A stretch of 35,760 nucleotides of DNA from a virus, in IMG/VR virus record IMGVR_UViG_3300035698_027721, positions 1 through 35,760 of that record, one strand, 5' to 3'. Positions 5,723 to 29,785 of this stretch are shown here, piece by piece. The notes beneath the pieces are model-generated. The model searched no databases. It was not told where the DNA came from and saw nothing but the letters and a program-made list of their open reading frames with translations. Position 1 is the first letter of the stretch, and each line of letters begins with the position of its first letter. Position numbers and translations under genes: made by a program.

Positions 5723-6682
5723 ATGGCTGATTCTTGTGAAGGCAGAAGAAAGCTAACTATAGATCACGAAGCAGATCATGAACCAGTAAAGAATAATGAC
5801 AATTTAAGAATGGCTCGTAGTGATTCTGCTGTATTTGAATTTATACTTACAGACCCTATTACTGATGATGTTCTTGATCTTACTGATGCTAGTCTTGTTA
5901 GATTTTCAATTAAGACTCCGATTACTCAAGGACAAGGAAATACAGACCTTAAAGTAATTAAGAGTAGTGCTGTCCCAGGAGAGATAACGATTCTTACTCC
6001 TAGAACAGATGGTAGAGTATTTGTAGAGTTATTGTCGCAAGATACTGTAGGTATGGATCCAGGAGAATATAAGTATGATATAGAAGTGGTTTATAGTGAC
6101 GGTCGTGTTAAGACTCCGGTTAATGATCACTTCCAATTATTAGAAGATATAACGCTTGATGGGGCTCCTGCTGGACAACAATATTGTCCTATATTGACAA
6201 GTAAAGGTCAATATATGAAAAGGACTTCTTTGAAGATGGCTAGAGTATTACTTAAGGATTTTAAATTATCTCCAAAGATTCAGGCCTATACAGATGAAGA
6301 ACTTAACATTTTACTTGACATATCTTTAAATGACTTTAATGCGTATCCAATGTTTACAGGACTTGGTTGGAATGATCTTGATTGTTCATGGTTAGGCGTA
6401 ATTGCTCGTGGTGCACAAGTTATGGCTTTACAGGCTCAAAGCTTAATAGAACAAGGTCGAGAATTTACTATAAATGATAATGGTATTTCGTTTACTCCTC
6501 CTGGACTTGGTGCACATATAATGTCATTAGCGTCAGCGATATCTACTCAGTATGAAAAAGAAAAAGAAGCAATTAAGGGTAATATGAAACCAGGACCACA
6601 ATACCTCGGTGTATTCAGGCCTTTGTCGATATTGCCTTCACTTATACGTTTGAAGCATTTAAGAGAGAGACAAATTGTTTAG
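5723..6682 (+). CDS. Connector/neck-type virion protein with Ig-like N-terminal domain
   Basis: This 319-aa protein starts after AAGGAG. Residues about 30-145 form an Ig-like beta domain of the BppU N-terminal kind (DVLDLTDASLVRFSIKT, then GEYKYDIEVVYSDGR). Residues about 165-319 are mainly helical (SLKMARVLLKDFKLS, LNILLDISLNDFNAY, IARGAQVMALQAQSL) and end in the FTPPGLGAHIMSLASAI region followed by a basic tail. The helical half resembles head-tail adaptor or neck proteins, in which helices pack around the portal. The exact position in the virion cannot be read from the sequence. The stop overlaps the TTG start of the next gene by 8 nt, so the two are translationally coupled. Confidence 0.55.
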   Translation: MADSCEGRRKLTIDHEADHEPVKNNDNLRMARSDSAVFEFILTDPITDDVLDLTDASLVRFSIKTPITQGQGNTDLKVIKSSAVPGEITILTPRTDGRVFVELLSQDTVGMDPGEYKYDIEVVYSDGRVKTPVNDHFQLLEDITLDGAPAGQQYCPILTSKGQYMKRTSLKMARVLLKDFKLSPKIQAYTDEELNILLDISLNDFNAYPMFTGLGWNDLDCSWLGVIARGAQVMALQAQSLIEQGREFTINDNGISFTPPGLGAHIMSLASAISTQYEKEKEAIKGNMKPGPQYLGVFRPLSILPSLIRLKHLRERQIV

Positions 6683-8282
6683 ACAGTTATCAAAACATAA
6701 AGAAGCTCAAACTGCTCCTGTTTATAAAACTCCAGGTGGGAGATATGTAACAGTGACTGACATGGTAACGGATCCGAATTTTGGGAAACCAGGGAAGAAG
6801 TTCAAGCCAATTCATTATAAGCCAGCTCCTATGAGTAAAAAGAAAAAACGATTTGCAGCAGGGTTAGAGGTTGTTTATACTTTAGAGGAAGCTAAGAATT
6901 CTGATTTTTCAATATTTTTAGCTGGTCCTACGTATCGAGTAGGTGAAGATTATGAGGGAGTTAAGAAAGGTTGGAGAGAAGAAGTTATAGCTCTTTTAAA
7001 GAAGAAAGGATATAGTGGAATTGTTTATTGTCCCGAATATGCAGAGGGTGATAAGAAGCCGAAAGGATGGACATATAGTAAGCAGATTCAGTGGGAGATT
7101 GATAATTTAAATAAAGCATCAATTGTTTTATTTTGGATACCTAGAGATTTAGAAACATTGCCAGCTTTTACGACTAATATTGAATTTGGAGAATGGTTAT
7201 CATCTGGTAAGATGGTGATTGGGTTCCCAAAAGAGGCTCCTAAGAATGAATATATTACGGAGAAGTGTAAATTATTAGATATCCCAGTTTCTTATACCAT
7301 AAGTGCATTAGTAGCTGAAGTAATGAAGAAAGTAAAAGATAGTAATAAAGAGAATATTTATTTTACATCTGATACTCATTTTGGGCAAGAAAGAACATTA
7401 AAATTATCTAAACGACCATTTGAAAATGTAAAACAAATGGACACAACACTTATTACGAATTGGAATAATATAATAACAAATAATGATATTATTTATCATT
7501 TAGGAGATATTGGTGATATAGATTATCTTAAGAAGTTAAATGGTAAAAAGATATATGTAGTTTTGGGAAATTATGAAGAAGATGATAAGAATGCAGAGAA
7601 TCTTTTAAAAAAAGATAAGCGTGTTGAGGTATTACCTTCAGGATCTAAAATAGATATTAAAGGTGAGGAATACACATTAATTCATAAGCCTGAAGATGGT
7701 GAAAGTCGCAAAGATTTTTATTTATATGGTCATACACATGCTTTACAAAAGGTAAAGCGTAATGGGGTAAATGTTGGTACAGATAATTATAATTTTAAAC
7801 CGATAGATGCTGAGGCTGTAAAGTTTTTTAGGAATGCTGTTTTGAATCATTATGATGAAAATGTTTTTGTGGATTCTATAGGTAAAAGGGAAAGTTCGGC
7901 TCATCTGATCTCTTCTAAAGATACATCTGCACTTTCTTCTTGGAGACGCAATGAAGATTATGGTGAAGGTCTTTATACTAATATGGAAAAATATAAAAGT
8001 GTTAGTGATTATTTACAGAAGAAGAAACGTAGGAGAGCGAGATTACTTACTTTATTGAAGATAAAGAAAGCAAATATAGTCTGTCCTAAGTGTCAAGGTG
8101 ACGACGTAAGTTTTGTAAAGATAGAGGGGAATAATCCCTTATATTATTGTAACAAATGTAAGGAAATGATTTTAACAACTAGAAGAGATGAAAGAGGAGA
8201 TTGGACAGATCAATATATGTCTAATACAATGAATACTACTTCACCGTATGATAATGTAATTGATAATAGAAGTTTTGTGTAA
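6675..8282 (+). CDS. Fusion protein: nucleoside 2-deoxyribosyltransferase-like, metallophosphoesterase-like and zinc ribbon
   Basis: This 535-aa product opens at TTG 6675 inside the previous gene; in-frame ATGs at 6762 and 6831 lack a good ribosome binding site. Residues about 77-215 match nucleoside 2-deoxyribosyltransferases: FSIFLAGP, WEIDNLNKASIVLFWIP and the TNIEFGEW segment with a likely catalytic Glu170. Residues about 227-385 match calcineurin-like phosphoesterases: SDTH (Asp233, His235), LGD (277-278), LGNYE (298-301), H337 and GHTH (352-355). The usual GNH is GNY here, so the normal catalytic histidine is missing. Residues 470-495 are a CxxC...CxxC zinc ribbon. The combination suggests nucleotide or NAD-type metabolite processing, in DNA modification or against host defence; the substrate is unknown. 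It sits oddly among structural genes. Confidence 0.75.
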   Translation: MFRQLSKHKEAQTAPVYKTPGGRYVTVTDMVTDPNFGKPGKKFKPIHYKPAPMSKKKKRFAAGLEVVYTLEEAKNSDFSIFLAGPTYRVGEDYEGVKKGWREEVIALLKKKGYSGIVYCPEYAEGDKKPKGWTYSKQIQWEIDNLNKASIVLFWIPRDLETLPAFTTNIEFGEWLSSGKMVIGFPKEAPKNEYITEKCKLLDIPVSYTISALVAEVMKKVKDSNKENIYFTSDTHFGQERTLKLSKRPFENVKQMDTTLITNWNNIITNNDIIYHLGDIGDIDYLKKLNGKKIYVVLGNYEEDDKNAENLLKKDKRVEVLPSGSKIDIKGEEYTLIHKPEDGESRKDFYLYGHTHALQKVKRNGVNVGTDNYNFKPIDAEAVKFFRNAVLNHYDENVFVDSIGKRESSAHLISSKDTSALSSWRRNEDYGEGLYTNMEKYKSVSDYLQKKKRRRARLLTLLKIKKANIVCPKCQGDDVSFVKIEGNNPLYYCNKCKEMILTTRRDERGDWTDQYMSNTMNTTSPYDNVIDNRSFV

Positions 8283-15059: not shown

Positions 15060-17102
15060 ATGCCAAATATACAAGGTATAGTTGGATATGCTGTCCCTGG
15101 AGCGTATTCGATAGTAAGATCATTGCCAGGAGCAGTATCTCTTCCCGGCTCACCTACGGTTGTATGTATTTTAGGTAATAGAGGTCAAACGGAAGAAAGA
15201 TTAGTAGCTAGAGCATTAGGTGATGCACAAGATGGATTGCCTATTAATTTTACTTATGATGAAGGTCCTGATGGACGTCATTTTCAGCTTGGTAAAACTA
15301 ATCTTGTTACTGGTTCTGTAGAAATATATTTGAACCCAGTTGGCGATGGTAACGATACTCCTCTCGCAAAAGTAACTGGTGTCACAGATCCTAGATTTGA
15401 TGCTGACTCTACTTATGCTGGGACAAGAGTTGTTACTACAGATGCTTATGAAGATTTGATCACAGAATTTCCTACAGAAAATATTTTTGTAGAGCAGTTT
15501 GTAGGGGTAGACGGAATGGATAGATATCGTGTAAGATATATTGATCCTACTGTTACTGCTGATGATCCTACTTTTGGATTATCGTTTTCGGATGAAGAAG
15601 CTAGAGGACTTGACGGCTATCAAGCGTTATCAAAATCAGGGTACGATGGTTACTTTGGAGTTGGTGCTGCTGGTACTTCTGAGAGTCAGCATTATTATTT
15701 AGATGAGACAACTGGTCAGATTATTCTTGATCAGCCTCTTAATTTTAAAGATAGCTTATTCTCTAGTTATGTAGCAGAAGCAGATCTTAATGATCCAGAG
15801 TTGTTTTATGATATTGAAGATCTTTATGCAAAGCATGGATTTCCTTCTGTATTTAATAATATTTCACTAGCAGCTTCTCTCGCTTTTGAGAATGGTGCAG
15901 CAGCTGTTTTAGCATGTCATGGTGGAGTAACATGGACAGGTACTCGTTGGGTACAGGACCCTCAGTTTGTTGATGCTTTTGCTAAATTGAAAGCGGAAGA
16001 TCTTGACATTCTTGTTCCTGTTACTGATAAGAGAATTTTGAACGAGATTATTGTTCCTGCTTATCAACCAGGTGTATCCCCTTATGATAAGATTACTGAT
16101 GGTAAGATACTTATAGATCCTATTGGTGGTAGTGATGATCCTGGTCCAAATTTACCAGTAACTAGTGTCACAACTGCAGACGCAATAGTATATAAGAATA
16201 GTCAGACATTAGTTTTAGATGGTGTTGGGGATGACGGGTATGTAACAGAAGTAGTTAGTGGTGCTCTTAAAATTACTCTTAATACTGCATTGGTATGGGG
16301 TGATAAGGTTGCTGTCGACTATAATACTAGTTTAGATCTTCTTGCGATTCTTCAGGTTTCTGGAAAGAATCATGTTGAGTTTATGTCATCAACAGCCGAA
16401 AGAAAAGAGAGAATAATGTTTACAGGACCAGATGAGTTTGATACTGTCAGAGACTTGTATGATTATTTGACAAACAGTATTACTGGTGTTGCTGCTACAT
16501 TTGGAGATTCTTATAGATGTATGTATCTTGCACCTACTAATATTGAGAGAACAATTAATGGTAAGTTAGAAACATTATCTGGTTTATATATGGCTGCATC
16601 AGCTGCTGGTCTTGCAGCAGGTAATCAATATATTCCAGAACCACTTACCAATAAGACTATTGTTGGTTTTAATATTCCAAGAGATCAGAAGTTCACGAGA
16701 GCTCAAGTTTCAGTTCTTGGTGGTGATGGTATTGCTCTTTGTACTCCATTAGCAGCAGGAGCTAAGATTATTCATAGCATGACTACATCGAATAGCGGTA
16801 ATGCTGTTGAAGAGGAAATCTCTATTACAAGAGCTAGTGATTATGTTGCTAAGACTACAAGAGCACTTCTTGAAGCTCGATTTGTTGGAAAGACGATTCA
16901 GGTGAATACTGTTAATGATGTAACAGTAACGTCAAAATCTGTTTTAGCTTCTCTTAAAGCGCAAGCTATTATGCTTGAGTGGGCAAATCTTTCTGTGAAG
17001 CAAGATACAAGTGAGCCTCGTCAGATAAACGTAAGTTTTGACATTAACCCAATATTCCCATTGAACTGGATTAATATCGAGTTCTCAGTTGGGCTATTAT
17101 AA
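15060..17102 (+). CDS. Tail sheath protein
   Basis: The 680-aa product has the usual build of a myovirus sheath. The N-terminus carries a PGAYS...LPGSPTVVCILGNRG segment that marks sheath proteins. A large variable surface region (about 50-430) includes the inserted 16120-16320 beta unit. The conserved C-terminal domain (about 500-680) starts after the VAATFGDSYRCMYLAPTN region, contains ISITRASDYVAKTTRALLE and ends with strands LEWANLSVKQD and FPLNWINIEFSVGLL. The sheath contracts around the tube to drive injection. The gene has a strong AAAGGAG leader and lies 17 bp ahead of the tube gene. At 680 aa it resembles T4 gp18 in size (659 aa). Confidence 0.9.
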   Translation: MPNIQGIVGYAVPGAYSIVRSLPGAVSLPGSPTVVCILGNRGQTEERLVARALGDAQDGLPINFTYDEGPDGRHFQLGKTNLVTGSVEIYLNPVGDGNDTPLAKVTGVTDPRFDADSTYAGTRVVTTDAYEDLITEFPTENIFVEQFVGVDGMDRYRVRYIDPTVTADDPTFGLSFSDEEARGLDGYQALSKSGYDGYFGVGAAGTSESQHYYLDETTGQIILDQPLNFKDSLFSSYVAEADLNDPELFYDIEDLYAKHGFPSVFNNISLAASLAFENGAAAVLACHGGVTWTGTRWVQDPQFVDAFAKLKAEDLDILVPVTDKRILNEIIVPAYQPGVSPYDKITDGKILIDPIGGSDDPGPNLPVTSVTTADAIVYKNSQTLVLDGVGDDGYVTEVVSGALKITLNTALVWGDKVAVDYNTSLDLLAILQVSGKNHVEFMSSTAERKERIMFTGPDEFDTVRDLYDYLTNSITGVAATFGDSYRCMYLAPTNIERTINGKLETLSGLYMAASAAGLAAGNQYIPEPLTNKTIVGFNIPRDQKFTRAQVSVLGGDGIALCTPLAAGAKIIHSMTTSNSGNAVEEEISITRASDYVAKTTRALLEARFVGKTIQVNTVNDVTVTSKSVLASLKAQAIMLEWANLSVKQDTSEPRQINVSFDINPIFPLNWINIEFSVGLL

Positions 17103-17119: not shown

Positions 17120-17767
17120 ATGGCAGAAGGCAGAGAACAAACAGGTGGAAGTGGCATGGGCGTTACTTCAACTCTACATCAGACAGGGTTGCAGACGGCT
17201 TTAAGTACACAAATAAAGATATATGCTACTGGTAATGATGGTGACAAATATCCTATTGGAGCAATTCAGTCACTTGCTCCAACAGAAACAAGACCATTAC
17301 TTCGCATAAGTGAAGTCGGGACAGATGCAGTAGTCGAGATTATTCCTCAGGCAGCTACTACTATAGAGTTGTCGGTTACTAGGATAATTTTTGATTTTCA
17401 GAGATTACCAGCTGCATTTCAGAGAGGTTTTAGACATATCAATGCGGCAAGATTACCGTTTGATATTGTTGTAGAAGATTATAATGCTGCTCGCGAGGTA
17501 TCTGTAGGAGATGTTGGAGGGGTATCTGCAGGAGTAAGGGTTACTACAACCTACAAGAATTGCTGGATTAATACTTATAGTTTTAGTTATACCCAAGATA
17601 ATTATATGATTTCTGAGACAGCAACAATTTGGGCTGAGCATGTATATGATTCAGATAATGGAACAGGTATTGCTGTTGGTGGCGATGATACTTTTGAAGC
17701 AACTGCTAATGAGAGTGCAACAGCGAATACTCTCTCTGATGCTACTGCTGCACCTACTGTATCGTAG
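17120..17767 (+). CDS. Tail tube protein
   Basis: The 215-aa product immediately follows the sheath gene behind a strong AAAGGAGG. It is mainly beta-strand, with the pattern of tube proteins: IKIYATGNDGDKYPIGAIQSLAPTE at the start, a central VTRIIFDFQRLPAAFQRG, and YKNCWINTYSFSYTQDNYMISETATIWAEHV as the closing strands of the barrel. The last 40 residues are Ala-, Thr- and Asp-rich and probably flexible. Hexamer rings of this protein would stack to form the tube inside the sheath. Gene order (sheath, tube, chaperones, tape measure) supports the call. A hairpin 20 bp after the stop may reduce transcription into the downstream chaperone genes, which need less product. Confidence 0.85.
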   Translation: MAEGREQTGGSGMGVTSTLHQTGLQTALSTQIKIYATGNDGDKYPIGAIQSLAPTETRPLLRISEVGTDAVVEIIPQAATTIELSVTRIIFDFQRLPAAFQRGFRHINAARLPFDIVVEDYNAAREVSVGDVGGVSAGVRVTTTYKNCWINTYSFSYTQDNYMISETATIWAEHVYDSDNGTGIAVGGDDTFEATANESATANTLSDATAAPTVS

Positions 17768-17844: not shown

Positions 17845-18489
17845 ATGGAATCAGGTGGGAAAATTATAAATGCAAGTGCACAAGTTGGTGACTGTGACGA
17901 TAGTGGCATAGTTAAAGAAAAGTCATTAATAATTGATGATGTTAGTATTTTAGCAGTAGCTCCAGTAGCTCCAGTAGCTCCAGTAGCTCCAGTAGCTCCA
18001 GTAGCTCCAGTAGCTCCAGCAGCTCCAGTAGTTCCAGTAGCTCCAGTAGTTCCAGTAGCTCCAGTAGCTCCAGTAGCTCCAGTAGCTCCTGTAACTCCAG
18101 TAGTTAACTTTAATCAAATCAATGGAGATTTGAGTCAGTTAGTGAATGTAGGGAAAATTGAAGAGGAGATTAAACTTTTTGGATTTACGATTAATATATC
18201 AACATTGTCAGCTACTGAGAATACAGAGATATTAGAACGAACAGCATTGTTAACAGATGATACAGCTAGATTTAATGAATTAAGATATGAGATATTAGCT
18301 AAAGCGATTAAGTCTGTTAATGGAGCAAAATTAGAAGCTTTATATAATGGTCCTCCAATTAAGAATAAAGCAAAGGGTGTTATTTCTGGATTGCAGCAAT
18401 TGTTTGTTAATATGTTATTTGATAAATATAATGACATGGTAGAGCGCAGTGAAAAAGCTTTGGAAGAGGGGGCTGTCTTAAAAAACTAG
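17845..18489 (+). CDS. Tail assembly chaperone, short form (gpG-like)
   Basis: This 214-aa product is placed between tube and tape measure genes, the standard site of the chaperone pair (lambda G/GT type). Residues 1-37 are polar. Residues 38-85 are a 16-fold VAP tripeptide repeat, unusual for this role. Residues 88-214 are a helical domain ([55 protein letters not shown]). The last codons are TTA AAA AAC TAG, which form a slippery heptamer; a -1 shift makes a longer product (see 18486-18854). The chaperone is thought to coat the tape measure before tube polymerisation. ATG 17845 is preceded by CAGAGGA at a normal distance. Confidence 0.75.
17956..18099 (+). repeat. 16 tandem copies of a 9-bp unit (GTAGCTCCA) in the chaperone gene
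   Basis: Sixteen in-frame 9-bp units run from 17956 to 18099. Eleven are exact GTAGCTCCA, and the others differ by one base (for example GCAGCTCCA at 18019, GTAGTTCCA at 18028 and 18046, GTAGCTCCT at 18082, GTAACTCCA at 18091). They encode a Val-Ala-Pro linker of 48 residues. The near-perfect units suggest recent expansion by slippage, so copy number may vary between isolates. Confidence 0.95.
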
Positions 18490-18549
18490 CGAAGGAGCCA
18501 CTTAGCCGTCTTAGATGGAGGATTGCAAGGGTATTAGGTAGGTGGTTCC
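18480..18549 (+). promoter_or_regulatory. Programmed -1 ribosomal frameshift signal
   Basis: The heptamer A AAA AAC (18480-18486) lies in the correct phase (TTA AAA AAC) and is followed at once by the TAG of the short form. After a 7-nt spacer GGAGCCACT (18494-18502) can pair with GGTGGTTCC (18541-18549), a 9-bp stem with two G-U pairs and a 38-nt loop that could hold further pairing. Slippery site, spacer and stem all match the canonical pattern. The -1 frame is then open for 122 codons up to the tape measure start. Confidence 0.85.
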
Positions 18550-18854
18550 ATGATCCCGAATTTGATAAGCTTAATTCAGCACAGTGGAAATTTTATGCTG
18601 AGCAATTAGTTTTAGATGATATAGAAAAGATTGAAGGTAATAGAGATTTAGCCGAATATGCAATGGCGTTTATGAATAGTGAAGGGGTACAACAGGTTCA
18701 AAAACGTAGAGAAATTGAAAAGAATAAACCTTCTGATAAAGAATTTGCTAACCAATTGGAAACTATGTTTGGAAGAAAAACAAATTTAGAAAAAACAAAA
18801 AGACAGATAGAAGCATCATCTACTCCTCTTGATGAAATTAAGGTATTAAATTAA
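18486..18854 (+). CDS. Frameshift extension of the tail assembly chaperone (T part of gpGT-like protein)
   Basis: This is not a free gene but the -1 frame extension of the chaperone at 17845. It runs from CTA 18486 to TAA 18852-18854 and adds 122 residues, giving a long form of about 336 aa. The residues include a basic start ([21 protein letters not shown]), an aromatic helix (AQWKFYAEQLVLDDIEKIEG) and a charged coiled-coil tail. The stop abuts the tape measure ATG at 18855. In lambda the T part is what binds the tape measure, so this segment should do the same. An internal ATG at 18663 could make a 63-aa protein, but it has no good ribosome binding site. Confidence 0.8.
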   Translation, partial: LAKEPLSRLRWRIARVLGRWFHDPEFDKLNSAQWKFYAEQLVLDDIEKIEGNRDLAEYAMAFMNSEGVQQVQKRREIEKNKPSDKEFANQLETMFGRKTNLEKTKRQIEASSTPLDEIKVLN

Positions 18855-21800
18855 ATGGCAGATTTAAACAAATTATTTAAGGACATTATAGATAAAGCTC
18901 AAGGGGCTACTGCAGCAACAGGAGATTTTGCTGGAGGAATAGATGAACTTGGCGAAGCTCTTAAAGATGCTATTCCTGACGCTCAAGCGTTAGAAGATAT
19001 TCTTAAACAAGTTTCTTCTCAAGATTCTGCTCAGGCACGTCAAGGTATTGAATTACTCAAACAAACCCTTAAGGCAGCAGGTATTGATGTTTCTAAGTTA
19101 AGCGGAGAGTTCGAAAAATTAGGGAAAGCAGCAACTAAAGGGACAAGAACAACAGTAGAAGGATTAAAAGATGGAGCAAAAGCAGCAGATACTCTATCGA
19201 GTGCTATTGATAATAGTAGTGATTCTTTTGATGAAGCAGAAAGAAAGGCAGCAAGAGCTACTGCCAAAATGGAAAAGGGCCTTAATAAAGTCACGAAAGC
19301 TGTAGATAGTCTTTATGGTGGATTTAAAAGTGGGGATCTTTCTACATTAGTTGGTGGTAATAAGTTTGTTTCTTTTTTGCAAGGTGCTTTTGATTCAACT
19401 CAAAAATTAAATAGACAAGTTTTAGAGCTTGGAGCTACAACTCAATCTTTTGAAAAAGCCTCTAATAGAGTTGGTGAATTTAGAGGTCAGCTCCGGAGTA
19501 TGGGTGTAACTATGGGTGTAGGATATGAAGAAGCCCATAAATATAGTCATCAGATGCAAGAGGCAGGATTTAGTCAAGATCAAATTACTAAATCAGTTAA
19601 AGTTGGTGATCAACAGATGAAAGGGATGATTGCAACTCAAGCAGCAGCTGTTTCAGCAGGTATGACTTTTGCACAATCTAATGATTTGATGGCTCAATCA
19701 ATGCAACATTTTGGAGGTACAGCAGGAGATGCAGTTGAAAATATTGTCAATATAGGGACTGCAGCTCGAACTGCAGGGACTAGTACTAGGCTTCTTTCTC
19801 CTATAGTTAAAGGATTAATGGGAGATTTTAAATTTCTAGGAATGGATATTCAGAATGTTACTAATCTTATTGCCAATTCCGCTAAAGAATCAAAAACTGC
19901 GAAAGTAGATATGGAAGTTATGGGATCAGCAATTAAGGGCATGAGGGGTATGGGAATGGGAGGCATGGCCTTTTTCTCACAAATGGGGGGTGCTCCAGGA
20001 TCTAAAGGAGGAGGTGCTCTTACAGGTGCATTGCAAATGGAAGAAGCAATGGCAGGCAAAGGCGAAGGTGTAGAAGGCGCAATGCAGACGATAATAAAAG
20101 GGCTAGAAAGATCTACGGGAGGCAGTTTATTAACTCGATCACAGGGTGCTAATGGATCACAACAAGAGGCAGCTCGTTTTACGATGCAAAGATCATTGTT
20201 AATGAAACAACTTAGCTTAGATAGGGATCAAGCTTCTAGATTTATGGAAATTTCTCAACATCTACAAAGTTCTGATGTGTCTGGTAAAAAAAGAACGGCT
20301 TTAAATAAAGAGCTTGCTAGTCTTGGGAAAAATCAGAAAAGTTTTGCAGCAAAGACTTATACAGTGTCTCAACAAATGAAAGATTATTTACGAAAAATAG
20401 AATCTAAGGTTTCTGAGTTTGTAAATAGGTTTTTTGGTTGGACAAGTAAAGTATTCGGATTAAGTCGTCTTTCAACAGCAATAGGAGCGTCATTTGGGAT
20501 AGCATTAGCTTCATGGGGTCTAAAGAAGGTCTTAATGGGACTTATCCCAGGTGGTAGTGGAATTGGTGGAGCTGGTGGAATTGGTGGAGCTGGAATGGGG
20601 GTATTGTCAAAATTAGCTATTCCTGCAGCAGGTATTGGTGTAGGAGCATATCAAGGTATGCAATATATGAAAAGGGGGCCTCAAGATATTGGCAAGACAG
20701 AAAAAGGAATAAAGTTTGCTTCAGGATTTCTTGGAGGCTCAGAAGAAGGAGGACTTGGGAGTGCTGCTATAGGTGCTGCTAAAGGTGCCGCAATAGGGGC
20801 TTTTGCTGGACCGTGGGGAATAGCAATAGGCGCAGCGATAGGTGGATTTGCAGGTTTTGCGGGAGCTAAAAAATTAAATGATTTTATGGGTAGTCAAGAG
20901 ACGAAGCATGTTGCAGCTACTAAGGTAGGGACTGCAAAGAATGAGTTAGCACTTTTAAAAAAACGAGAAGCAGCTGGGCAACTCACTATAGATCAGGAAT
21001 TTAGATTAAAAGAACTTGAAGGTGCTAAAAAATTAGAGCAAATGGCTCTTTCGACTAAAGAGAGAGAAGAGTTTGAGTCTAAAAAGAAAAATGTTGATTT
21101 ATTGATGGGTAAAGATAAAGAGAGATATGAAGTATTATTAGCAAGGGAAACTGCATATAAAAAAGCTATTGAACAACAAAAATTAGAGTTTACAGAAATA
21201 GTTTTAACATTTGGGGGAGAGTGGGATAGAAAATTTAAGAAAATGTTTGGTATGGATGAAAATAAGACTGAATCTAGTATACGAAGATCAGGAGAGAATC
21301 AATATGCAGCAAAAGGCTTAATAAAAAATGCAAGGATGGCGAAATCTAACGATGCTGATTTAGCAAAGGCAGAAAGTTGGATGGGGAATACCCAATCGAA
21401 AGAGGAATTAAGCCTTATAGCTCTTAATAATAAAAAAGGATTTCTTTCAAAAGACGAAAGTGATAGATTAGATGTACTTCAAACTAAGCGGGTACAAGAT
21501 TATGAAAAACAACAGACATGGCTTGGTGTTTTATATAAGAAGCAAGATGATTTAAATGCTCAAGCTAATATATATAAAGACATACAAGACAGGACAATAC
21601 AAGAAGCTATTATAGCAAAATCTCTAGAAGGTAAAAGTACAAAAGAGATTCAAGAGATATTGAAACATAATGGATTAGATGTATCTAAGAAAGAGGCAAA
21701 AGCATTAGCAACAGGGTCAGTAGAAGCTTACTCGAGTGCTGGAGGACAAAAACTTTCTCTAGATCAATTAGCGGAGTTAAGGAAGAGTCTTACTGATATG

Positions 21801-22265
21801 TTGTCATTCCAAACTGCACCAGGCCAAGTTAAACAAGTACCTGGGTCTACTAATGAGGCAGTATTAGGATTAGTTCATGGAGGAGAATTCATTGGAAGAC
21901 CTAAAAAGATAGCAGAGGAAACAGGATCAAGTTTAGCTGAATTTGCTAAACCTAAAAAGATAGCAGACGAAACAGGATTAGTATTACAAACACTTACAGG
22001 ATCGATACCAGCAGCAGCAGGAAGTGCAGGAGCAGCAACAGCATTTAATGGCAATGCAACTAATGGGACAACTAATAATATAAATAATGCAGTGGGTGGA
22101 ACAGCAGTAGGGGGAGTAGCAGCAGGCGGGAGTGGAGAGCTTACAATAATTGTAAAAGGTGAAGGCGGTCTTGAAAATATAATTAATGAAAGAATTAAAA
22201 TTAATATAGCAAATGGCATATTAGTAGGAACGGCGAAAGCTCTTAATCAAGAGAAAAATGGTTAA
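18855..22265 (+). CDS. Tape measure protein
   Basis: The 1136-aa product starts immediately after the chaperone stop. Residues 1-160 are helical and coiled-coil-like with many Ala, Lys and Asp. The middle contains amphipathic helices rich in Met and Gln. Residues about 540-680 are a Gly/Ala-rich hydrophobic region with two probable membrane-spanning stretches (GASFGIALASWGLKKVL and the AAIGAFAGPWGIAIGAAIGG segment), as expected for a protein that enters the host membrane during ejection. A charged helical region follows. The C-terminus has a duplicated RPKKIAEETG / KPKKIADETG unit (about 1015-1042) and an Ala/Gly/Asn linker. No lytic domain was seen. At about 0.15 nm per residue the tail would be near 170 nm; this is an estimate. 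Confidence 0.9.
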   Translation: MADLNKLFKDIIDKAQGATAATGDFAGGIDELGEALKDAIPDAQALEDILKQVSSQDSAQARQGIELLKQTLKAAGIDVSKLSGEFEKLGKAATKGTRTTVEGLKDGAKAADTLSSAIDNSSDSFDEAERKAARATAKMEKGLNKVTKAVDSLYGGFKSGDLSTLVGGNKFVSFLQGAFDSTQKLNRQVLELGATTQSFEKASNRVGEFRGQLRSMGVTMGVGYEEAHKYSHQMQEAGFSQDQITKSVKVGDQQMKGMIATQAAAVSAGMTFAQSNDLMAQSMQHFGGTAGDAVENIVNIGTAARTAGTSTRLLSPIVKGLMGDFKFLGMDIQNVTNLIANSAKESKTAKVDMEVMGSAIKGMRGMGMGGMAFFSQMGGAPGSKGGGALTGALQMEEAMAGKGEGVEGAMQTIIKGLERSTGGSLLTRSQGANGSQQEAARFTMQRSLLMKQLSLDRDQASRFMEISQHLQSSDVSGKKRTALNKELASLGKNQKSFAAKTYTVSQQMKDYLRKIESKVSEFVNRFFGWTSKVFGLSRLSTAIGASFGIALASWGLKKVLMGLIPGGSGIGGAGGIGGAGMGVLSKLAIPAAGIGVGAYQGMQYMKRGPQDIGKTEKGIKFASGFLGGSEEGGLGSAAIGAAKGAAIGAFAGPWGIAIGAAIGGFAGFAGAKKLNDFMGSQETKHVAATKVGTAKNELALLKKREAAGQLTIDQEFRLKELEGAKKLEQMALSTKEREEFESKKKNVDLLMGKDKERYEVLLARETAYKKAIEQQKLEFTEIVLTFGGEWDRKFKKMFGMDENKTESSIRRSGENQYAAKGLIKNARMAKSNDADLAKAESWMGNTQSKEELSLIALNNKKGFLSKDESDRLDVLQTKRVQDYEKQQTWLGVLYKKQDDLNAQANIYKDIQDRTIQEAIIAKSLEGKSTKEIQEILKHNGLDVSKKEAKALATGSVEAYSSAGGQKLSLDQLAELRKSLTDMLSFQTAPGQVKQVPGSTNEAVLGLVHGGEFIGRPKKIAEETGSSLAEFAKPKKIADETGLVLQTLTGSIPAAAGSAGAATAFNGNATNGTTNNINNAVGGTAVGGVAAGGSGELTIIVKGEGGLENIINERIKINIANGILVGTAKALNQEKNG

Positions 22266-22276
22266 AAGGGGATAAG

Positions 22277-22897
22277 ATGGCTTTATTGGAAGAAGGTAAG
22301 CATGGAGAAGCAGCAGCTAATAGACAATTAGTCTTATGGGAAGTTCCATATCTTGGCTCTAGAAAATATATTCAAATGTATGTTAATCCTCAGAATATAG
22401 CGATCTCTAGTACGAAAGATGTATCAGAAACGAGAACTAAAGGTGGATATATTTTACAGTATTGGGGTGAGAAATTAGATGAAATTAAAATTGGTGGCAA
22501 TACAGGGTCGTCAGGAATAGAAGGGATTAATGTCCTTAAAGATATTTATAGAAGTGAGCAGTTATCATTACTTAATATCGTAAGGAATCAAACTATAGAT
22601 GGGACAAAAAGAAGACAGTCTTTAGCCCAACTTGCAGCTAGTGTAGTGATGCATTACGCAAGTGTTCAATATTTTGGATACTTTAAGAGCTTTAATTTTA
22701 CTGAAGATGCTAATCAGACTGGACTATATTCTTATCAGATCGACTATACAGTCACGAAGACTATTGGTCTTAGGAAAAATTGGGCTGGTTGGCATCGTGC
22801 ACCTCGCTCTACTTCTGAGGGAGCAGTGTATAATTCGCAAGAAGAAGCAAAACGAAAATCTAATATATCAGGTGAATTAAACTATCCAACTAATTAA
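22277..22897 (+). CDS. Baseplate tube-initiator protein (XkdP/gp53-like core without LysM)
   Basis: This 206-aa protein follows the tape measure after 11 bp, with AAAAGGGG before the ATG. It has the pattern of proteins that start the tail tube on the baseplate: a strand with VNPQNIAISSTKDVSETRTKGGYILQYWG, a strand DEIKIGGNTG, a helix SGIEGINVLKDIYRSEQ, then strands VVMHYASVQYFGYFKSFNFTED and LYSYQIDYTVTKTIG. PBSX XkdP has such a domain with a C-terminal LysM; here the LysM is absent, but the next protein has one inside. The tail of 25 residues is basic and disordered. Gene order in PBSX- and Mu-like phages supports the call. The family name is not certain. Confidence 0.55.
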   Translation: MALLEEGKHGEAAANRQLVLWEVPYLGSRKYIQMYVNPQNIAISSTKDVSETRTKGGYILQYWGEKLDEIKIGGNTGSSGIEGINVLKDIYRSEQLSLLNIVRNQTIDGTKRRQSLAQLAASVVMHYASVQYFGYFKSFNFTEDANQTGLYSYQIDYTVTKTIGLRKNWAGWHRAPRSTSEGAVYNSQEEAKRKSNISGELNYPTN

Positions 22898-27937: not shown

Positions 27938-29785
27938 ATGCCAGGTCAATTACCACAGGATTTTTCTTATGTAGAAATAGGTAGGATAGTTAACATTGAT
28001 GTTACTACAGGTAATTGTGATCTTTTAACACATAGTTTAACCTCTGGTCAAAGGACTACAATTCCATATACTCTTCCTTATGCTGGAAGAGGATGGGGGA
28101 TTTTAGTAGGGCCAGAAGATGGATCTCGAGTTGTTATTGGTTATACTGCAGTTAATAGCCCATACATATTAGCTTATCTTCCTAATACTCCTTTTTATAG
28201 TGATGATATCGAGGGGGGGGAAGGAGTTGGAGTTAACGAATTTCCTTATCGAAAACCTAGAATTGGTGAAATAGTCCTTCAGAGTAAAGCTAATAGCGGT
28301 CTTCACTTAAATGATGATGGAGATGTTAGGCTTGATATCGGAACAGGTACGTTTTTTGAACTGAATAAAGGTTTAGAAACAATTATACAAGAGAGTGTAG
28401 ATGTCCTTACAGTAAATGAAGCTGGAAAATTTAAATCAGGTTTAGTACGAAGAGATATTAGAGAAGAAGTAGAAAAGGAACTTGATGCATTATTTGGTAA
28501 TACTTTTGATGTAGATGTTTCTAAATTATTATATACGGAGATAATGGGTCAAAATCCAGAATATGTTCAACAAGAAGCAGAGCTACCAAATGGTCTTTAT
28601 GATCCGTCTTTTGATAGTACAGTGGGAGGTATATCAGCTAAGAATCCTGCATTAACAGAAATGCGGTTTGAAGTAGAAGAGTATGCTGATAGTAATGTAG
28701 GGTTAGATGAAGTCCGACTTACAGATGCACAAAAAGCAAAAGGTAAGATGGAATTTAATCGTCTATCAGATCTGCATTTGGGTACAGTTAGTAATGATTT
28801 TGGTAAAATATTAAGATTTGATCACGGGTTTGGTAAAGGGAATCAAGGTCATGGTAAGATATATTCTAAATCAACAGATTTCTTTTTTAATAAGAACAAT
28901 ACTTTGAAAAGTCCTCAGTATTCTGTAGATTTTGAACGATATGTAGATAAGATGAATAAGACTGCTTCGGCTATATTGCTTAAGACCCTTTTGCATACAA
29001 AGGGAGCAGATTTTAAAGGGAATTTAGAATCGAAAGATTTTAGAGGTGCACTATGGTCTTTATTGATAGATAAGGAAGGATTAACAAAGCTTGAAATTCC
29101 AGCAGCAACAAATTTAGGAGATTCAGCTGGGGAACCAGGAAGAGCTGGGAAGAGTATTATTGCAAATTTGAATGGGAGTTTAACATTAGCAGTAGGGAAA
29201 GAAAAAAGTGAAGATGTTAAAGTTAATGATGTTCTTGCTTCTGATGTGGCACATAGTACAAAAGGCAGATTAGATAGAAGTATAACATTAGATGCAGAAG
29301 GGAATATTGAAACTATTATCGGGGCAGATACAGAAAAGGGACAAAGTTGGATGCTTAAAACAGATGGTAGTATTGAAGGGCGAATTGGCAAAGATACAGA
29401 TAATGAACAAAGTGTTAAGATAACTACTGAAGGTGGTATTAATGTTACTATTAGCGGTCCTGATCTTCAGAAAGATGCTATAAATTTAACTGTTACTGGC
29501 AATATTAATCAAACAGTTACTGGTAATATTAATCAAGTTATTGATGGGGATGTAGACTCTTCTATCACAGGGGATGTCACCGCCAAGATTCAAGGGACTA
29601 CAGTTTTTGAAACTCCAAAAATGAAAGTTGGTAGTGACAGTGCTAAAGAGCATTTTGTTTTAGGAGATTCGTTTATGAAGTATTTTAATACTCATGTTCA
29701 TGTAGGTAATATGGGTGCTCCTACACTTCCTCCAACGTCTCCTATGTTGCCTACACTATTATCTAAAAAACATACGACGGAGTAA
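27938..29785 (+). CDS. Baseplate central spike protein (OB-fold, gpV/gp5-like)
   Basis: The 615-aa product starts with an OB-fold domain (about 10-90; VEIGRIVNIDVTTGNCDLLTH, then GRGWGILVGPEDGSRVVIGY), the usual N-terminal domain of gpV, gp5 and VgrG spikes. A middle region of about 400 residues is not assigned. Residues about 480-560 are beta-prism type repeats (VTGNINQTVTGNINQV, DGDVDSSITGDVTAK). The C-terminus has NTHVHVGNMGAPTLPPTSP (His586, His588), a metal-binding tip motif common in spikes. It would pierce the outer surface of the host. A run of eight G at 28213-28220 gives a Gly/Glu loop. Start: ATG 27938 after GGGGATAAG. Confidence 0.75.
   Translation: MPGQLPQDFSYVEIGRIVNIDVTTGNCDLLTHSLTSGQRTTIPYTLPYAGRGWGILVGPEDGSRVVIGYTAVNSPYILAYLPNTPFYSDDIEGGEGVGVNEFPYRKPRIGEIVLQSKANSGLHLNDDGDVRLDIGTGTFFELNKGLETIIQESVDVLTVNEAGKFKSGLVRRDIREEVEKELDALFGNTFDVDVSKLLYTEIMGQNPEYVQQEAELPNGLYDPSFDSTVGGISAKNPALTEMRFEVEEYADSNVGLDEVRLTDAQKAKGKMEFNRLSDLHLGTVSNDFGKILRFDHGFGKGNQGHGKIYSKSTDFFFNKNNTLKSPQYSVDFERYVDKMNKTASAILLKTLLHTKGADFKGNLESKDFRGALWSLLIDKEGLTKLEIPAATNLGDSAGEPGRAGKSIIANLNGSLTLAVGKEKSEDVKVNDVLASDVAHSTKGRLDRSITLDAEGNIETIIGADTEKGQSWMLKTDGSIEGRIGKDTDNEQSVKITTEGGINVTISGPDLQKDAINLTVTGNINQTVTGNINQVIDGDVDSSITGDVTAKIQGTTVFETPKMKVGSDSAKEHFVLGDSFMKYFNTHVHVGNMGAPTLPPTSPMLPTLLSKKHTTE

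Follow-up and report, generated by a model that had tools for sequence, protein, structure and literature searches.

A probable programmed -1 ribosomal frameshift joining two tail-chaperone frames in a distant relative of Bacillus phage G

How is a long open frame translated when it overlaps the end of the preceding gene in the -1 frame and offers no evident start of its own? This question is raised by two overlapping frames in the tail module of a 35,760-bp virus record (the window, that is, the whole stretch of DNA analysed here). The phage from which this fragment derives has a contractile tail and is a distant relative of the jumbo Bacillus phage G. On the + strand of the window lie a tail sheath gene of 680 aa (15060-17102; PHROG 2839, E 4e-22; phage G gp178, E 6e-14), the gene of a probable tail tube protein which follows the sheath (17120-17767; 31% identity to phage G gp180, E 8e-9) and a tape measure gene of 1136 aa (18855-22265; PHROG 167 tail length tape measure, E 5e-16). 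The two chaperone frames are sited between tube and tape measure, giving the order sheath - tube - chaperones - tape measure. Further along, weak matches were obtained to a Pfam tail-tube-initiator family (22277-22897) and to baseplate proteins (27938-29785). Upstream of the tail genes, a 535-aa ORF (6675-8282) carries nucleoside 2-deoxyribosyltransferase-like and calcineurin-like phosphoesterase domains as well as a possible zinc ribbon.

The first of the two frames (17845-18489, + strand, as are all elements described within this region) encodes a gpG-like tail assembly chaperone of 214 aa, the short form. It matches PHROG 2792 (tail assembly chaperone) weakly, with an E of 0.02, and the family HMM with an E of 1e-36, in a model that includes the window's own row. 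The open -1 frame (18480-18854) encodes a second chaperone domain, a gpT-like extension, which matches its family HMM with an E of 1e-31, the window's own row again being included. The N-terminal part of the chaperone contains a Val-Ala-Pro repeat, encoded by a 9-bp tandem repeat of 16.7 copies (17954-18103, detected with Tandem Repeats Finder). This repeat is absent in the aligned relatives and is likely a length-variable linker.

An in-phase A_AAA_AAC heptamer is located at 18480-18486, inside the first ORF. The zero frame reads GTC TTA AAA AAC TAG (18475-18489), so that its stop codon TAG (18487-18489) adjoins the 3' end of the heptamer. The -1 frame opens at 18453 and closes with a TAA (18852-18854) which abuts the ATG (18855) of the 1136-aa ORF. 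It comprises 124 codons counted from the heptamer or 122 past it, and the predicted fusion is 336 aa long (214 + 122). The first-pass annotation, made from the sequence of this DNA, had described the in-phase heptamer in TTA AAA AAC TAG, a 122-codon -1 frame ending at the tape measure ATG and a long form of about 336 aa, all of which hold. The combination of heptamer and long -1 frame is far from a chance arrangement. Among 58 in-phase X_XXY_YYZ heptamers in the forward genes of the window, only the one at 18480-18486 leads into a long -1 frame; for the other 57 this frame extends over 35 codons at most, against 124 here. A -1 frame of at least 122 codons is open at only 0.3% of codon positions in the window. 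A search of Rfam returned no match.

Among named phages, Bacillus phage G (497 kb, NC_023719) is the nearest. It shares with the window the gene order sheath - tube - chaperones - tape measure and homologous domains in both frames. In phage G, gp182 is annotated as a joined CDS, 'tail assembly chaperone', over gp181, with an identical TTAAAAAACTAGC at the join; the junction sequences are GAATTAAAAAACTAGC in phage G and GTCTTAAAAAACTAGC in the window. In a tblastn comparison, the window's -1 frame matched the gp182 extension from residue 1, which is the heptamer (E 1e-3). In the zero frame, the C-terminal ~120 aa align with phage G gp181 at 33% identity. The two loci also differ in several respects: the second domain of phage G is longer (254 codons), its downstream hairpin is weaker and different from that of the window, its chaperone carries no Val-Ala-Pro repeat, and protein identity to the window is low.

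The point at which this homology begins bears on whether the second frame could be a separate gene, initiated at its own start and translationally coupled to the first. The presence of a Shine-Dalgarno-like GAGGGGG just upstream would fit such an arrangement, as would the annotation of two ORFs at the same position in Eggerthella phage LE2-3. The first-pass annotation had raised a separate start as a point to be looked for; no ATG, GTG or TTG occurs in the window's -1 frame from 18453 up to 18663, where the first ATG is found, yet homology begins at the heptamer. Since position 18663 is far inside the conserved second domain, independent initiation could not yield the whole domain. LE2-3 itself carries an in-phase A_AAA_AAA_TAA. 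We therefore give almost no weight to a separate gene, and retain a frameshift at the heptamer as the means of joining the two frames.

To what extent is this site kept beyond phage G? Searches of IMG/VR with single proteins of the window (tape measure, tube or -1 frame) recovered no relatives. An alignment of five sheaths recovered 50 IMG/VR loci, and one of two divergent sheaths 39, of which 2 were already in the set. Profile models of the two chaperone domains were then scanned over these sheath-derived loci, a slippery site being no requirement; the models were built from heptamer-bearing members and may favour close kin, and a protein search is blind to the nucleotide heptamer. Both chaperone domains were present in 70 loci; the second domain occupies the -1 frame in 59 and the +1 frame in 11. 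An in-phase A_AAA_AAN was found in all 59 of the -1 loci (A_AAA_AAA in 50, A_AAA_AAC in 8 and A_AAA_AAG in 1), and the zero-frame stop directly follows the heptamer in 45 of them, lying a few codons on in the rest. A_AAA_AAC is common to all eight phage-G-like loci, the window included, and the K-K-L at the junction is invariant across this group. In two phage-G-like loci, TCA follows A_AAA_AAC and the zero frame ends 8 and 2 codons further on (L005:9229-9259 and L024:9568, respectively). The first of these contigs also carries, after the sheath, two adjacent similar ORFs of 239 and 256 aa (L005:6894-8415) which look like duplicated tail tube genes.

The nearest relative of the window's chaperone shows 29% identity. 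In a maximum-likelihood tree of 61 distinct fusions, the window, phage G and the remaining A_AAA_AAC loci group together (support 100/99); the exact place of the window is unsure because its branch is long (2.27).

Because phage G shares the heptamer and the -1 frame, and because 59 of 59 -1 loci keep A_AAA_AAN, we conclude with a probability of about 95% that the site is a programmed -1 ribosomal frameshift in a tail-assembly chaperone of the lambda G/GT kind. The joining of the two frames by a -1 shift, as proposed in the first-pass annotation, is thus supported by position, homology and comparative conservation. The same comparison makes it scarcely credible that a single gene was broken by an indel in the A-run, through sequencing error or in a pseudogene. 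A homopolymer does sit at the junction, but 59 loci of independent metagenomic origin and the genome of phage G, an isolate, are all interrupted at one and the same codon; conservation of the junction in an isolate genome and in dozens of metagenomic contigs excludes this explanation for the family.

Slippage could also take place during transcription, the RNA polymerase adding or dropping an A in the run so that some mRNAs encode the fusion directly. The tract is A-rich, and most relatives have seven A. However, the run contains only six A in the window and in all eight phage-G-like loci, and transcriptional realignment goes with A runs longer than seven (PMC3711429). Transcriptional slippage is therefore very unlikely. 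Moreover, the run is in X_XXY_YYZ phase at all -1 loci, and the Shine-Dalgarno-like and stem elements point to the ribosome rather than to the polymerase.

Folding places a predicted RNA stem 7 nt after the heptamer. It consists of 11 bp (18494-18504 paired with 18539-18549) enclosing an inner hairpin (18505-18526), with an MFE of -20.1 kcal/mol over 18494-18549 and a pair probability of 0.998 at the stem base. A 9-bp stem with a 7-nt spacer had been reported at this place: the stem is present and the spacer correct, but the helix extends to 11 bp. Compared with dinucleotide shuffles, the folding energy is unremarkable (z = -0.8). In an ungapped comparison, relatives retain between 4 and 11 of the 18 stem pairs, and the stem, if active at all, would therefore be private to the lineage of the window. 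Co-variation of heptamer and stem had been proposed as a check; the heptamer is kept in 59 of 59 -1 loci, but the stem neither co-varies nor persists. The earlier suggestion of a pseudoknot formed by the loop fared less well: the best complementarity between the loop and 18550-18610 amounts to 6 bp, and 90% of shuffles do as well or better, so that the pseudoknot is unsupported.

On the 5' side, the Shine-Dalgarno-like GAGGGGG (18466-18472), overlooked in the first-pass annotation, is a candidate stimulator. Its predicted duplex with the anti-SD sequence (-10.4 kcal/mol) is equalled by only 1.5% of 30-nt stretches in the window. An internal SD located 9-14 nt upstream stimulates -1 shifts (review, PMC5009743). 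GAGGGGG lies 7 nt from the heptamer in its strongest register, which falls short of this usual range, and 10 nt when counted from the GAGG core. AAGGAGGT occurs 12-13 nt 5' of the heptamer in many relatives with A_AAA_AAA. Most phage-G-like relatives have a weak SD-like element, unlike the window and many of these A7 relatives, where it is strong. Among the listed loci with a K/R/Q-E-V/I motif, the Glu codon within AAGGAGGT is GAG in 14 of 15; GAG makes up about a third of all glutamate codons in the same genes (122/361). As the loci are related, this apparent preference for GAG at the SD-like motif is suggestive only. Both the stem and GAGGGGG are predicted stimulators, with putative roles.

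Taken together, these observations suggest the following scheme for the -1 frameshift. Most ribosomes translating ORF 17845-18489 would stop at the TAG and release the 214-aa short form. In a minority, the stem 3' of the heptamer would cause a pause and GAGGGGG on the 5' side would probably exert a backward pull, so that the tRNAs on AAA and AAC re-pair one base back and translation continues to the 336-aa long form. If lambda is a guide, the tape measure protein would be coated by both forms, with the long one recruiting tail-tube subunits; a fixed ratio between long and short forms, as proposed in the first-pass annotation, may be expected on the same kind of analogy. What the sequences show directly is the anatomy of the site, the homology of both domains to chaperone pairs of phages and the conservation of the heptamer; that shifting occurs, how efficient it is, what the two stimulators do and the function in assembly are inferred, the last by analogy.

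No slippery heptamer is present in the 11 loci whose second domain is in +1 (L011, L015, L056-L062, L084 and L093). Relatives with the heptamer lost and both frames still open, which the first-pass annotation had considered evidence against a frameshift, therefore do occur, but it is in the +1 frame that their second domain is now found. Their junction is NNN_AAA_AGY, with a variable preceding codon and a conserved AAA_AGY (L011:9850-9900, L015:11057-11110). The protein joins read ..ISK|VVRTPEHQF in this clade and ..DLKK|IINEPEHRF in -1 relatives. The tree unites the +1 loci, which comprise 10 distinct sequences, in a single clade (99/97) placed within the -1 loci. Since the second domain has changed frame and this change defines one nested clade, it looks more like a changed direction of shifting than like a loss of shifting.

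We lean, with some reserve, towards a switch of direction in this clade, A_AAA_AAN with its -1 shift having been replaced by AAA_AGY with a +1 shift; on the simplest reading of the junction, tRNA-Lys would move one base forward on AAAA. For a -2 step, the tRNA would have to re-pair poorly. Internal initiation was also considered, given an adjacent GTG in some of the loci; as this GTG is absent in L015, L058, L061 and L084, internal initiation cannot be general in the clade. At AAA_AGY there is neither a neighbouring stop codon nor a signal of the proline or RF2 type. If the switch is real, AAA_AGY would be an unfamiliar +1 signal, and selection would keep shifting itself, not its direction or its signal. 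One precedent was found for a +1 shift at the chaperone position, in the archaeal virus HSTV-2, where it is very likely +1 (PMC5009743).

For the window, the correct annotation is a joined chaperone gene, whose long form would be missed by gene callers. With its roughly 60 loci, the family can be used to ask which components of the cassette are maintained by selection: every -1 member has the heptamer, but stem and SD-like elements are present in some members and missing in others. Of the additional results, the clade with an apparent change in the direction of the shift is the most interesting. The -1 site itself is a further textbook case of a class already known in thousands of phages.

The lambda heptamer is G_GGA_AAG, different from that of the window, and the phage of the window is contractile-tailed. 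The likeness to lambda gpG/gpGT (Xu, Hendrix and Duda 2004, as cited in PMC5009743 and PMC3711429) is one of position and layout: in both, the pair precedes the tape measure gene, and a short and a long form arise through a -1 shift shortly before the first frame ends. In the lambda model, many gpG per gpGT are bound to the tape measure, and the T domain recruits the tube protein (PMC5009743). Within SEA-PHAGES genomes, 2397 tail-chaperone frameshifts have been annotated (PMC10885494). A_AAA_AAC belongs to the heptamers over-represented where frames change in bacteria; in reporter tests, two tail-chaperone cassettes shifted at 6-7% (PMC3711429).

Escherichia coli dnaX (PMC5009743) resembles the window in having an upstream SD-like element, an A-rich heptamer and a downstream stem. 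Its heptamer is A_AAA_AAG, whereas the Z base of the window is C, and the SD spacing of the window is shorter in the strongest register. Because the zero-frame stop adjoins the heptamer, the shift in the window yields the longer product, unlike in dnaX.

Further parallels are Mycobacterium phage Phrappuccino gp76/gp77 and the LE2-3 pair. Each has a related sheath, the same gene position, an in-phase heptamer (G_GGA_AAA in Phrappuccino) and a long -1 frame, with very remote proteins. In LE2-3 (MW679026; L003:7731), the A_AAA_AAA_TAA is associated with a 113-codon -1 frame, and the pair, annotated as two separate ORFs, is probably a joined chaperone that has so far escaped annotation.
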